From the NCBI GenBank assembly GCA_018902385.1, contig JABSSW010000067.1, positions 146,986 through 210,985 on the forward strand: DNA of 64,000 nucleotides. Direction: 5' to 3'. This stretch comes from Physcia stellaris. Lineage: Eukaryota; Ascomycota; Lecanoromycetes; Caliciales; Physciaceae. Of this stretch, positions 52,160 to 56,479 are shown piece after piece; position 1 is the stretch's first letter; every line of letters begins with the position of its first letter. Under the pieces are notes generated by a model. The model did not search any database. It saw nothing but the letters and a program-made list of their open reading frames with translations, and was not told the origin of the DNA. A program made the position numbers and the translations under genes.

Positions 52160-53170
52160 TTCTAACATTCACTTTAACGGAAGTGGTGCACCACTTCCGA
52201 TCATTTTGGTGAGTGGGGTTAGGGTTACTTAGCTCCACTTCCGATGTCTAGAGATTTCATCGGAAGTGGAGTCGTTTCTCGATGAATATTACACGTATCG
52301 AAAATCTGAGACCAGTTCTGAAATCTACGTAAAAAATGGAGTTGAAAAGTGGTGGGGTTGGGCCGGATCGGGCTAGCGGCTAATTTGTTACAAATTTTTG
52401 AAATTTTTTCATATCGAAATTTCTCAAAGTCCCGAGATTTCATCGGAAGTGGAGTCGTTTCTCGATGAATATTACACGTATCGAAAATCTGAAACCAGTT
52501 CTGAAATCTACGTAAAAAATGGAGTTGAAAAGTGGTGAGATTGGGCCGAATCGGGCTAGCGGCTAATTTGTTACGAATTTTTCAAACTTTTCTGACTCGA
52601 AATTTCTCGAAGTCCCGAGATTTGGTTGGAAGTGGAGTCGTTTCTCGATGAATAATACACGTATCGAAAATGTGAAACCAGTTCTGAAATCTACGTAAAA
52701 AACCAAATCGAAAAGTGGTGAAGTTGGGCCGAATCGGACTAGCGACTAATTTGTTACGAATTTTTCAAACTTTTCTGACTCGAAATTTCTCGAAGTCTCG
52801 AGATTTGGTTGGAAGTGAAGTCGTTTCTCAATGAATAATACACGTATCGAGAATTCGAAATCAGTTCTGAAATCTACGTAGAAAATCAAATTGAAAAGTG
52901 ATAAGATTGAGCCGAATCGAACTAGCGACTAATTTGTTACGAATTTTTGAAGTTTTTGAACTCGTAAATTTCTCGAAGTTTCGACTTTTAATTGAACGTG
53001 AAGTCATTTCTCGATGAATATTACACGTATCGAAATTTTAAAATCAATTATGAAATTTACGTGAAAAATGAAATTAAAAAATGATGAAATTGAAATTAAT
53101 CGCATTAACGATTAATTTTATACGAATTTTTGAAATTTTCGTCGAAAAAATGATTCGAATATCGAATTTT
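52160..53170. repeat. Palindrome-hairpin-tandem array module A (five 183-bp units)
   Basis: The left end TCTAACATTCACT leads into a perfect 22-bp palindrome (52178-52199, half-site CGGAAGTGGTG), then GGGGTTAGGGTTAC (52215-52228), then a hairpin with exact 14-bp arms (52233-52246 and 52258-52271, CATCGGAAGTGGAG). Tandem units follow, with an anchor string GTCGTTTCTC at 52271, 52454, 52637, 52820 and 53003 (variant GTCATTTCTC): a period of exactly 183 bp throughout. Unit 1 is the most GC-rich, and mutation increases steadily to unit 5. The palindrome, hairpin and each unit start share GGAAGTGG. Confidence 0.92.
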
Positions 53171-53473
53171 CTTGCGTACAATTGATTTGAAAATTGACGT
53201 AAAATTTGACAATTTTATGAAAAAAAAAAACGTTATCGAAATTGCTATTAAAATTGATATATAAACTGTAAATGAAAAAAAAATAACATGTTATCACTGT
53301 ATATTAAAAATAAATTAATAATTTAAATCAATATAATTCGAATTTCAAACTTACATTGTATTTCGAAAAATTATTGAATTTTATGATCACAAATTCTCAA
53401 AATAATCTTCTTGTTCGTTCGAAGATGAAATAAATTTCTATAACAATTAAAATTTTATAATTTTTAATACAAA

Positions 53474-53725
53474 TTATTGATCACTTACATTAGATCGTTT
53501 GTATTCACGAATGATAATTTTATTTAATCGTTTTTCATCGTTTTCGTCGTCATAAACAATATTTATCCAAAAATAATTTTCGATATTTTGTTTTGATTTA
53601 AGCAAATAAATCAAAAATTCGTCATTGATTATAAAATTTGAATCAATAAAATCAACAAAATATGTTTCGAAATCGTCGATTGTTGTAAAGTAATTGTTAG
53701 AATTTTCGTGTACAAAAATCGACAT
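53474..53725 (-). CDS. Small hypothetical ORF beside array A
   Basis: An unrecognised 83-codon ORF in AT-rich sequence: acidic and aromatic (NYFTTIDDFETYFVDFIDSN), with no Gly or Pro. It lies beyond the decayed end of the array and points toward it. A comparable ORF (56106-56441, also minus) holds the same place beside array B and has similar E-Y-F/L-D-SNF strings. Its openness in a stop-rich composition, and the repeated arrangement, are the only support. Confidence 0.35.
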   Translation of the reverse strand: MSIFVHENSNNYFTTIDDFETYFVDFIDSNFIINDEFLIYLLKSKQNIENYFWINIVYDDENDEKRLNKIIIREYKRSNVSDQ

Positions 53726-53829
53726 ATTTATGCTGAATAATAAATATATTCGTTGTATGATAAATTGTGATTGAATAAATGATTTGAATCAACAAAAAAT
53801 AAACGTGAAATAATGATTGTTTAAATAAA

Positions 53830-54797
53830 CATGAAAATTAATTCAAAAGTAAAATTAATTCATAAATAAATATTTTTATTCATGCATGAATAAATTGAAT
53901 ATTATTTACAATAGAAATTTATTCACGATTAAATAAATATTTATGCACGAATATAATTTAATTGATAAACGAATAAAATTTAATTCATGCACGAATATAA
54001 TTTAATTCATGCACGAATATAATTTAATTCATGCACGAATAAATTGAATAATATTTACAATAAAATTTATTCAGTTGCACGATTAAATAAAAAATGCACG
54101 AATATAATTTAATTGACGATCGAATAAAATTAATTGATACACGAATATAATTTAATTGATGCACGAATAAAATTTAATTCATGCACGAATAAAATTTAAT
54201 TCATGCACGAATATAGATTAATTCATGCACGAATATAATTTAATTCATGCACGAATAAATTGAATAATATTTACAATAGAAATTTATTCATGCACGATTA
54301 AATAAATATTCATGCACGAATATAATTTAATTGATGCACGAATATAATTTAATTGATGCACGAATATAATTTAATTCATGCACGAATATAATTTAATTCA
54401 TGCACGAATATAATTTAATTCATGCACGAATATAATTTAATTCATGCACGAATAAATTGAATAATATTTACAATAGAAATTTATTCATGCACGATTAAAT
54501 AAATATTCATGCACGAATAAAATTTAATTGATGCACGAATATAATTTAATTGATGCACGAATATAATTTAATTCATGCATGAATAAATAAATATTCGTGC
54601 ATGAATAAATTTAATAATTTTAACAATACAAATTAATTTTTACACGAATCAATTTAATTCATGCACGAATAAATAAATATTCGTGCATGAATAAATAAAT
54701 ATTCGTGCATGAATAAATAAATATTCGTGCATGAATAAATAAATATTCATGCACGAATAAATTTAATAATTTTAATAATACAAATTAACTTTTACAC
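53830..54797. repeat. Palindromic AT-rich satellite, block 1
   Basis: Built from many copies of ATTCATGCACGAAT and its reverse complement ATTCGTGCATGAAT, separated by AAATTTAATT or AAATAAAT spacers. Units of about 20-30 bp alternate in orientation, so neighbouring units can pair as hairpins (TGCACGAAT..ATTCGTGCA). A longer higher-order string (ACAATAGAAATTTATTCATG) recurs about every 200 bp. Confidence 0.88.
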
Positions 54798-54800
54798 GAA

Positions 54801-56010
54801 TCTAACATTCACTCTAACGGTAGTCGATATCGACTACCAACGATTTTGGTGGAGGGGGTTAGGGTTGACTAGATCCACTACCAACGAAATTTTTTTTCGT
54901 TGGTAGTGGATCTAGTTTCGCGTCAATATTACACGTATGAAAAATCTGAAACCAGATTTGAAATCAGCGTGAAATTTCGCACAAAATACACATACATTAT
55001 GTCTCGATCGGGTTAGCGCTTGATTTTTTAAAAATTTTCGAACGATTTTTCGACGAAAATTTCTAAGTCCCGAATTTTCGTTGGTAGTGGATCTAGTTTG
55101 ACGTCAATATTACACGTATGAAAAATCTGAAACCAGATTTGAAATCAGCGTGAAATTTCGCACAAAATACACATACATTATGTCTCGATCGGGTTAGCGC
55201 TTGATTTTTTAAAAATTTTCGAACGATTTTTTCGACGAAAATTTCTAAGTCCCGAATTTTCGTTGGTAGTGGATCTAGTTTGACGTCAATATTACACGTA
55301 TGAAAAATCTGAAACCAGATTTGAAATCAGCGTGAAATTTCGCACAAAATACACATACATTATGTCTCGATCGGGCTAGCGCTTGATTTTTTAAAAATTT
55401 TCGAACATTTTTCGAAACGAAAATTTCTAAGTTCCGAACTTTCGTTGGTAGTGGATCTAGTTTGACGTCAATATTACACGTATGAAAAATCTGAAACCAG
55501 ATCTGAAATCAGCGTGAAACTCCGCACAAAATACGCATACATCATGTCTCGATCGGGCTAGCGCTTGATTTTTTAAAAATTTTCGATCGATTTTTTCGAC
55601 GAAAATTTCTAAGTCTCGAATTTTCGTTGGTAGTGGATCTAGTTTGACGTCAATATTACACGTATGAAAAATTTGAGACCAGATTTGAAATCAGCGTAAA
55701 AGATTGCATCATTTTCACATACTTTTTGTCCCGATTTGGTTAGCGCCTGATTTTATACGAATTTTTCAATTTTTGTATCTCGAAAGTTCGATTAAGTCTC
55801 GATAAAACATCGATATCGAAATCGTTTCTCAATGAATAATTGACGTATTGAAAATGTAAAATCTGTTTTGAAATCTACGAGAAAGATAAAAATAAAAAGT
55901 GATAAGATTGAGTCAAATCGAATTAACGACTGATTTTCTACGAATTTTTGAAATTTTGTATCTCGAAAATTCGATTAAATTTCGAAAATTTTGCGATATC
56001 GAAATGAATT
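54801..56010. repeat. Palindrome-hairpin-tandem array module B (five units plus a decayed sixth)
   Basis: Same architecture as module A. The left end TCTAACATTCACT is followed by a perfect 20-bp palindrome (54819-54838, half-site GGTAGTCGAT) and GGGGGTTAGGGTTG. Then comes a hairpin with exact 22-bp arms (54868-54889 and 54895-54916) around five T. Units follow with the anchor GTCAATATTACACG at 54922, 55103, 55285, 55467 and 55649 (period 181-182 bp). The decayed sixth unit (about 55800-55990) resembles module A units (TCGTTTCTCAATGAATAAT). The hairpin and unit starts share TTGGTAGTGGATCTAG; the palindrome shares GGTAGT. Unit 4 is the least mutated. Confidence 0.92.
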
Positions 56011-56105
56011 TTAAATCTGTATATAAACGTTAATTGAATAAAATAATAAAACAACAAAAATATTAATATCAATTCAACAAAACTCACAATGTTTTGATAA
56101 ATTTG

Positions 56106-56441
56106 TTAAAAATCAACATTTCGTCGAAATGTTGATTTAAACATATTGTGAATAATTGTGCATATTTCGTCGAATGTAAACGTGTTTTGTTTCGATAATA
56201 ATGACAAAACGTCGAAAATTGTTGTTAAAATGTCGTTGAAATTAGAATCGAGAAAATATTCGAATTGAATTCGTAAATTTTCGTTTGTCATTGTTGATAC
56301 AATCGAATCGAAATTGCTATCAAGAATATATTCTAAATATTCAACAAAATCTGTGTTTGACATTGTAGACATAATGTGAATTTGTTTTGAGATATTTTCA
56401 AAAAAATGTTGATATTTTAAAATAAAAATTGAAATCAACAA
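56106..56441 (-). CDS. Small hypothetical ORF beside array B
   Basis: 111 codons, unrecognised. It contains an internal repeat (EYLEYILDSNFDSIVSTM and FEYFLDSNFNDILTTI), no Gly and no Pro. The first ATG gives a hydrophobic lead. A later Met (MSTMSNTDF) may be the true start. Placed beside array B as 53474-53725 is beside array A, with related sequence (TGTATATAAAC / TGATATATAAACTG) between array and ORF in both modules. Confidence 0.4.
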   Translation of the reverse strand: MLISIFILKYQHFFENISKQIHIMSTMSNTDFVEYLEYILDSNFDSIVSTMTNENLRIQFEYFLDSNFNDILTTIFDVLSLLSKQNTFTFDEICTIIHNMFKSTFRRNVDF

Positions 56442-56479
56442 GAATATATAGATTAAATGAACAATATAAACAAATTTAA

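Follow-up and report, generated by a model that had tools for sequence, protein, structure and literature searches.

Fungal telomere-linked helicase (TLH) elements include Ustilago UTASa/UTASb, those of Magnaporthe, the Fusarium TLH, the low-GC RecQ genes of Zymoseptoria and the helicase+DUF3505 telomere repeats of Colletotrichum (PMC10532341, PMC12857005, PMC5576322, PMC4522978). Here we describe a relative of these elements in a 64,000-nucleotide stretch of the Physcia stellaris genome (GCA_018902385.1, contig JABSSW010000067.1, positions 146,986 to 210,985 of the forward strand; called the window below), whose last base is also the contig end. Judged from its sequence, the window carries two heads (left ends) of a subtelomeric TLH element, which we call modules A and B. 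As far as the consulted portions of the sources go, a subtelomeric RecQ-like gene is common to this and the other fungal elements; the OrsD (DUF3505) domain is shared with Ustilago and Colletotrichum, low GC with Zymoseptoria, a fixed orientation to the telomere with Colletotrichum, and the occurrence of truncated beside full copies with Fusarium and Zymoseptoria. The marks of a TLH element, namely a RecQ-family gene, an OrsD/DUF3505 domain and a telomere-proximal location with fixed orientation, were all found here. What the published TLH descriptions do not contain, in the parts examined, is a head whose parts share one short sequence tag, a cassette of two finger motifs in the protein that switches with the class of the tag, and junctions at the dinucleotide TC. 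The word stem "palindrom-" does not occur in the available text of PMC5576322, and a literature search with weak coverage of subscription journals (PMC9910759, PMC12857005, PMC10532341, PMC5576322, PMC8381367 and PMC4522978 included, in the portions available) found no report of a tag/finger code. The initial annotation of the window had seen in A and B a layout matching no described fungal element; the modules turn out to be left ends of an element of a described kind. The explanation we favour, at a probability modestly above even, is a TLH element in which the OrsD-RecQ protein recognises the tags on the head of the element that encodes it, with elements added serially at chromosome ends.

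Other occupants of chromosome ends offer comparisons. The Saccharomyces Y' element is subtelomeric, contains a helicase open reading frame (ORF) and spreads among ends, according to the consulted part of PMC4522978. The terminal retroelements (telomeric Penelope-like elements, MoTeR, FoTeR) are described in the consulted parts of PMC4522978 and PMC12857005 as lying at chromosome ends in one orientation, with a telomere-like motif and tandem truncated copies, and the Physcia element resembles them in these respects. Unlike them, it has a precise boundary at TC and not at telomere repeats. A Pfam scan of the TLH ORF, the part of the element covered by the domain scan, found no reverse transcriptase. 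Y' elements occur as tandem repeats, and we know of no OrsD fingers or tag system in them.

Clean heads follow one order: TCTAACATYCACTCTAACGG, a palindrome, TTTTGGTGAGTGGGGTTAGGGTT, a hairpin and an array of units mostly 183-184 bp apart. A single 11-nt tag per copy is common to palindrome, hairpin and unit starts. In module A the palindrome carries GGAAGTGGTGC while hairpin and units both carry GGAAGTGGAGT/C; in module B the palindrome carries GGTAGTCGATA while hairpin and units both carry GGTAGTGGATC, the B palindrome and units having 6 exact bases and a related right half in common. The same parts had been described in the same order in both modules, and all of them are present at the coordinates read. 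A genome-wide sequence search gave many relatives in the assembly (43.97 Mb, 147 contigs; one genome was analysed). The resulting 41 heads comprise 30 with a readable start, 10 more decayed ones from the head alignment and one recognised on direct reading of a further sequence piece, where Cn denotes a contig of this assembly (the window is C67 bases 146986-210985) and copies are named by contig and position, module A being head C67_199146; the pattern match C62:213611, which would have been the 31st, has no head start and was excluded. Genome-wide the tags fall into six classes: GGTACCGGTGC (class 1), GGTACCGAAGC (class 2), GGAACCCGAGC (class 3), GGAACCGGTGC (class 4), and the tags of palindromes A (class 5) and B (class 6, with units as in module B). 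Classes 3 and 4 are represented by a single copy each. The class of the first unit equalled that of the palindrome in 27 of the 30 scored heads; the mismatched heads are C36, with a damaged palindrome, C34_61221, with C>T/G>A decay, and C91_21512, with a disrupted hairpin. Over 29 of the 30 copies (C36 left out for its palindrome, three register-shifted copies kept, kinship among copies uncontrolled) the mean Hamming distance from palindrome to first unit was 1.72, against 4.02 after shuffling, and none of 20,000 shuffles was as low. At the class level, the true pairing of six representatives was alone among 720 in reaching the observed score, and the unit-start patterns gave 139, 39 and 62 matches against 0 with a reversed control. 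The initial annotation had proposed that the tags co-vary beyond chance, had suggested a search for further modules and had named mismatched copies as the adverse outcome; the search upheld the covariation, the few misses all being damaged.

The heads, A and B included, do not stand alone. The recurring order is head, units, small ORF of A or B type, 22-bp array, a stretch ahead of the gene (pre-TLH) and TLH, and this recurrence of heads ahead of TLH genes rules out a free-standing satellite or miniature inverted-repeat transposable element. Genome-wide there are 34 TLH matches, several of them pieces of one copy and many with stops, and 13 matches to the TLH 3' end, 10 of them full-length. 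Past the TLH stop of the window (63237), homology to the 3' part of other copies runs to the contig end (64000), and in two copies (C10, C142) TLH is followed by a further unit array with class-2-like tags. The TLH ORF matched TIGR00614 (recQ_fam) at E 3e-34 with 118.6 bits, under the curated cut-off of 219.8, and Pfam Helicase_C at E 4e-14, over the cut-off; a TLH-derived profile matched the Bloom helicase in the PDB. OrsD/DUF3505 (PF12013) matched TLH residues 21-128 at E 2.3e-10, over the cut-off, and the Pfam scan of the ORF returned OrsD, Helicase_C and one sub-threshold match. In the region of helicase motif VI the window protein reads GRIDR and the protein P0002 reads GRAGR. Since some canonical RecQ residues are missing, the window TLH, though long and open, may not be an active helicase.

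The evidence that connects the protein with the tag lies in its N-terminal part, where two C2H2-type fingers have all eight metal-ligand positions invariant in five aligned copies. TLH N-termini were compared in 17 copies, 15 of them of known class (C10 and C142 assigned from their units, the heads being cut off; class 2 is one copy, and classes 3 and 4 are without a TLH finger region in the examined sequence). For residues 29-185, DNA identity within a class was 0.98 (class 1, 10 pairs), 0.95 (class 5, 21 pairs) or 0.92 (class 6, 1 pair), and between classes it was 0.69-0.72, but 0.90 for classes 1 and 5. Residues 1-28 were 0.93-0.98 identical throughout, irrespective of class, and residues 186-200 were 0.88-0.99 identical, the value of 0.88 belonging to class 6 against class 1 or 5. 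Identity to the window copy, itself of class 6, was 89.0% over the pre-TLH stretch in the other class-6 copy, 95.5% and 90.9% in class 2, 94.8% in class 5 (154 bases only), 82.8-93.8% in class 1 and 83.5% in class 3, and residues 29-185 were 91.5% identical in class 6 and 71.5-76.9% in the six others found. Neither the pre-TLH stretch nor residues 1-28 follow the class, so the covariation of head and cassette spans intervening DNA that has no share in it. Synonymous divergence (dS) over three pairs was 0.44-1.65 for residues 30-185 (one segment saturated), 0.12-0.42 beyond residue 185 and 0.15-0.33 for residues 1-30. The raised value within the cassette points to an old exchanged cassette and not to recent selection on single residues.

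Classes 1 and 5 allow the two halves of the tag to be compared with the two fingers. They have the right tag half GGTGC in common and differ at 0-1 of 26 residues of finger 1, whereas the left tag half differs, as does finger 2 at 7-8 of 22 residues (Fisher p 0.0008-0.007 for one class-1 copy against three class-5 copies). Finger 1 reads NDKS(I/N)TH in classes 1 and 5 (NDKSIIH in one decayed copy), NDNFDAH in class 2 and NNTDLTTH in class 6. Finger 2, given as the seven residues ahead of the first histidine and for class 6 read by eye, is NEKKMST (C53, C4_1318651) or NEKKMNT (C91) in class 1, with C5_956113 similar and frameshifted; NDKKIRT in class 2; NNKTMRM (C57; C144, frameshifted), NNKTMRI (C4_1282441), DDKTMRM (C12_89343, C10), NEKKMRM (C12_79424) or NDKKIRT (C142, frameshifted) in class 5; and SDKTMRL and SEKAMRN in class 6. 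The same right tag half goes with the same finger 1 in classes 1 and 5, and the left half follows finger 2 less strictly. The usual polarity of C2H2 fingers places the N-terminal finger on the 3' half of the site. Tag and cassette could instead be co-inherited lineage markers, the tags binding a host factor or marking the phase of a satellite and TLH not being their reader. Head and TLH do lie only a few kb apart in cis in a handful of lineages, and the residue rule has exceptions (C142, C41); such linkage is nevertheless unlikely to be the whole explanation, since the intervening DNA (pre-TLH and residues 1-28) is independent of class, the B-type small ORF is found with both class 2 and class 6, and tags and fingers fit half by half in classes 1 and 5. 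The initial annotation had suggested a protein or a nucleic-acid guide that recognises the tag; of these, a protein reader fits best, and the fingers of TLH itself are the putative tag-binding part.

A uniform tag in every unit, as first described, holds for most arrays. In 5 of 30, however, the far (right-hand) units clearly carry a foreign class, always at the far end: C10_69317, C53_310153 and module B of the window (6 then 2), C53_305173 (1 then 2) and C5_969307 (3 then 5, the last assignment being weak). Some other last units fit no class well and were left out of this count, as was C10_70003, which reads as mixed since the reading continues into the nested C10_69317. The far units of module B match the class-2 head of C18 at 89%. 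Because foreign tags occur at the far end only, new tags would enter on the head side while older ones persist distally, and the foreign tags are apparently an older tag class that survived there through unit amplification or recombination between arrays; one of these processes must homogenise the array. Copying within the module, by gene conversion or hairpin-templated unit amplification and with no selection by a binding protein, could by itself renew units from the head side and so leave another class at the far end alone. It seems to us a rather improbable account, as it leaves unexplained that a change of tag extends to the palindrome, outside the array, and is accompanied by a change of the TLH finger cassette. 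The copying of tags between parts that had been suggested at first is thus retained for homogenising the array and is not needed as the primary cause.

Flank matches were obtained for 17 of the 30 heads; C34_31127 matched heads only and three C91 heads represent one junction, which leaves 14 junctions. TC stands at the exact head start in the best intact match for 11 of them (p 2e-11 with a TC background frequency of 0.064) and in one of the best three matches for 13. The intact target sites read N^TC with N varied, and the targets include units, 22-bp arrays, the pre-TLH stretch and the TLH gene. Break-induced replication between chromosome ends, with the common head starts due to few founders, would suit the pre-TLH 341 junction that is repeated three times in C91, as from tandem duplication, and the mixed arrays, which look recombinant. 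We regard it as improbable, given that 13 distinct junctions start at one head base, at TC, with 2 to 5 common bases (TC to TCTAA).

Serial addition at chromosome ends is further suggested by the orientation and the age order of the heads. On contigs >100 kb, 28 of 31 heads point to the nearer contig end, and at 14 of 16 contig ends the majority of heads does so. We take TTAGGG as the telomere repeat, since an 18-base pattern of it matches at the very start of C1, C34, C69 and C72 and at high coordinates of C46 and C77. The repeats of C34 occupy bases 9-49, and two heads point there; since C34 alone among head-bearing contigs has a terminal match, the assembly stops short of the telomere at most ends. 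Whenever a head points to the telomere, its GGGGTTAGGGTT motif has the sense of the telomere G strand. The C>T/G>A load was higher in the innermost than in the outermost head in 6 of 9 series, equal in 3 and lower in none, and over all inner-outer pairs it was higher in 13 and lower in 1, with 9 ties; by this measure the inner heads are older in most series. The 13 TLH 3'-end matches in the assembly do not include the remainder of the 3' end that head C12_79424 interrupts, save 46 bp in C13, and no remainder of the A-type ORF was found after the nested heads in C41 (examined to 112300) or C10 (to 57000). The element is about 10 kb or more long, and no right end was found in the examined sequence. 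An ordinary long transposon with a TC preference, nested in older copies, keeping both flanks and having its right end further out, would agree with that length, with the precise left end and with the TC target. We judge this quite unlikely in view of the missing remainders, the head orientation toward contig ends and the age order.

On the reading that we favour, A and B would be successive left ends of a TLH element colonising chromosome ends. The element's own OrsD-RecQ protein would bind the tag via its two N-terminal fingers, with the right half recognised by finger 1 and the left half by finger 2. Palindrome, hairpin and unit starts would make up a putative array of at least seven binding sites in each module, through which the protein is loaded on the head of its own element. 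The tag and its finger cassette would be subject to exchange but remain matched to each other, much as in a specificity cassette. The loaded protein would cause, or profit from, the joining of a new head at TC to a shortened, broken or resected chromosome end; the whole element would be replicated or transferred outward upon joining, the sequence beyond the junction would be lost and the new element would become the subtelomere. Heads, tags and their six classes, the switching finger cassette, TC at most junctions, the orientation and the greater age of inner heads in most series are seen in the sequence itself; tag binding by the fingers, joining by the protein and the terminal nature of the addition we infer from it. 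Cutting and joining would fall to tyrosine-recombinase-like motifs with the palindrome as site, a proposal at motif level without profile or model support. The R, K, R and Y align in five proteins and the H of HxxR is present in P0005 alone; profile searches gave no tyrosine-recombinase match in TLH even at E up to 10, and none against PDB sequences. An AlphaFold model of the region (3 sequences) had a predicted local distance difference test score of 31.8, was unusable and gave no support. A homologue search with residues 520-920 found none, and a search from P0002 did return P0003-P0005.

Several observations weigh against this reading. The flank match of module A is weak (46 nt) and reads AC instead of TC, and the best flank match reads TT for C41_124966 and C91_21512. 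Orientation is contrary for the C36 head and for two C5 heads, which face away from the nearer end; on short contigs it is split, with 4 of 10 heads pointing toward that end and 6 away; and a headless TLH at C10:3786-8888 points inward. Terminal loss is seen in one clean case in an incomplete assembly of 147 contigs, which is noisy in repeats, with apparent single-base length errors in runs and odd sequences in C12:42k, C91_21512, C105, C142 and C144. Many TLH copies show apparent frameshifts and stops, and some of the arrays may therefore be remnants or products of misassembly. The difference between classes 1 and 5 is not confined to finger 2, since divergence is equally high over residues 128-160 (9-10 of 33), and C41, with a class-1 head, has a finger 2 of NEKKMRM with a class-5-like helix end (RM, not ST), although its reading, like that of C142, crosses an apparent one-base length error. 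Tag class was predicted blind from the fingers at three loci ahead of reading the tags. Class 5 was predicted and found at C12_39407, where the head is badly preserved; at C142 the fingers predicted GGWACCGGTGC (class 1 or 4) and the units are class 5; and at C92 the unit-start pattern searches found no unit. With one of two tested predictions right, a simple residue rule is unreliable, though the cassette correlation is strong.

A bolder version, offered tentatively and with less than even confidence, is that these are a new class of chromosome-end transposon. One protein would combine an exchangeable address reader of two fingers with a tyrosine-recombinase-like domain and a RecQ helicase. 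It would bind the palindrome, the hairpin and the 183-bp-phased tags of its own head and attach this head at TC to ends that have eroded; ends would thus grow serially by self-addressed elements whose address classes coexist like incompatibility groups. The series TTG..R..E, Y.K, R and ...Y in five TLH proteins and the short target core recall Cryptons; unlike in Cryptons, a tyrosine recombinase in TLH is without profile or fold support, and to our knowledge Cryptons have neither a RecQ helicase nor an array. Helitrons have an HUH Rep and a Pif1-type helicase, insert between A and T and end in 3' CTRR. A Helitron was ruled out here, as the helicase is of RecQ type, the Pfam scan of the TLH ORF gave no HUH Rep or Pif1-type match and the target is N^TC, not A/T. 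By analogy only, the target-recognition domains of type I restriction HsdS and PRDM9 are divergent DNA-reading cassettes in otherwise uniform proteins whose sites change along with them; in the Physcia element protein and sites are on the same element, and no homology is claimed. If the OrsD fingers read the tags, the long-standing question of TLH function and spread would become directly testable, with six site variants and matching protein cassettes of four classes available from this genome. It would provide a natural collection of two-finger proteins with their matching DNA addresses, an example of subtelomeres maintained by an element through serial addition and a molecular function for the OrsD domain.

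Table 1. Features of modules A and B and of the TLH gene (window positions)
Feature	Position	Strand	Remark
Head A start TCTAACATTCACTTTAACGG	52161..52180	+	sharp left boundary; TCTAAC begins at 52161
Palindrome A CGGAAGTGGTGCACCACTTCCG	52178..52199	.	perfect, 22 bp; tag GGAAGTGGTGC in both arms; class 5
Telomere-like motif GGGGTTAGGGTT, head A	52215..52226	+	recurs in heads
Hairpin A	52233..52271	.	14-bp arms 52233-52246 / 52258-52271; right arm = start of unit 1
183-bp unit array A	52251..53140	+	4.9 copies; class-5 tag at unit starts; last unit degenerate
Small ORF A	53474..53725	-	83 aa; ORF reading
22-bp AT-rich array ATTCATGCACGAATA	53910..54767	.	head B joined to array at CACGAA^TC
Head B start TCTAACATTCACTCTAACGG	54801..54820	+	left boundary of module B
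Palindrome B	54819..54838	.	20 bp; tag GGTAGTCGATA; class 6
GGGGTTAGGGTT, head B	54855..54866	+	direct reading
Hairpin B	54868..54916	.	22-bp arms 54868-54889 / 54895-54916; 5-nt loop
182-bp unit array B	54894..55990	+	5 class-6 tags, then class-2-like tag GATATCGAAAT in last unit
Small ORF B	56106..56372	-	88 aa; ORF reading
Second 22-bp AT-rich array	56492..57614	.	repeat detection
Pre-TLH stretch	57614..58173	+	CA-rich, then ATTGTTTT repeats; divergence independent of tag class
TLH-like ORF	58174..63237	+	1687 aa; OrsD fingers and RecQ helicase; downstream of module B
Class-switching cassette	58258..58728	+	residues 29-185; finger 1 C33,C36,H51,H58; finger 2 C106,C109,H122,H127
Tyrosine-recombinase-like motifs	60076..60618	+	residues about 635-815; TTG..R..E, Y.K, R, HS..T....Y; motif level only
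RecQ-family helicase domain	60871..62109	+	residues 900-1312; profile matches

The periodic stretch of array B (54894-55765) holds 4.8 copies of 182 bp. The A-type small ORF has 80-85 aa in 6 of the 12 copies examined and is shorter (41-68 aa) in the other 6, and the B-type ORF has 88 aa in all 3 copies examined (C67, C18, C5). At C53:318000-319500 a block of about 41% GC lies between the pre-TLH stretch and the TLH gene and is apparently an insertion of another element. After the post-TLH units, at C10:11393-11520 and C142:2530-2430, there is a hairpin (AGCTTGTCT...AGACAAGCT in C10) followed by GCGAGTTCAATTCCACTCG and a T run, which we take to resemble a tRNA T-arm and Pol III terminator. Rfam at the gathering score gave no match in four loci, these two included, and an RNA element was set aside on that result; a tRNA scan of the window found none. 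At C5 956113-969307, which lies 0.21-0.23 Mb inside the contig, two elements are oriented toward one another and meet within their TLH genes (960527-960539); the arrangement resembles an ancient fusion between chromosome ends.

Near window position 42 kb GC drops from about 48% to about 26%, and both modules lie inside the AT-rich terminal block. In the part of normal GC, ORFs at 25061-35349 matched berberine-bridge, FAD-binding and MFS families in a Pfam scan and may belong to a secondary-metabolite cluster close to the end of the chromosome. The AT-rich sequence at 42000-52000 was recognised by eye as a heavily mutated gypsy-like retrotransposon with a reverse-transcriptase-like phrase near 46050-46330, in which TGA at a likely Trp codon, also read by eye, suggests repeat-induced point mutation.

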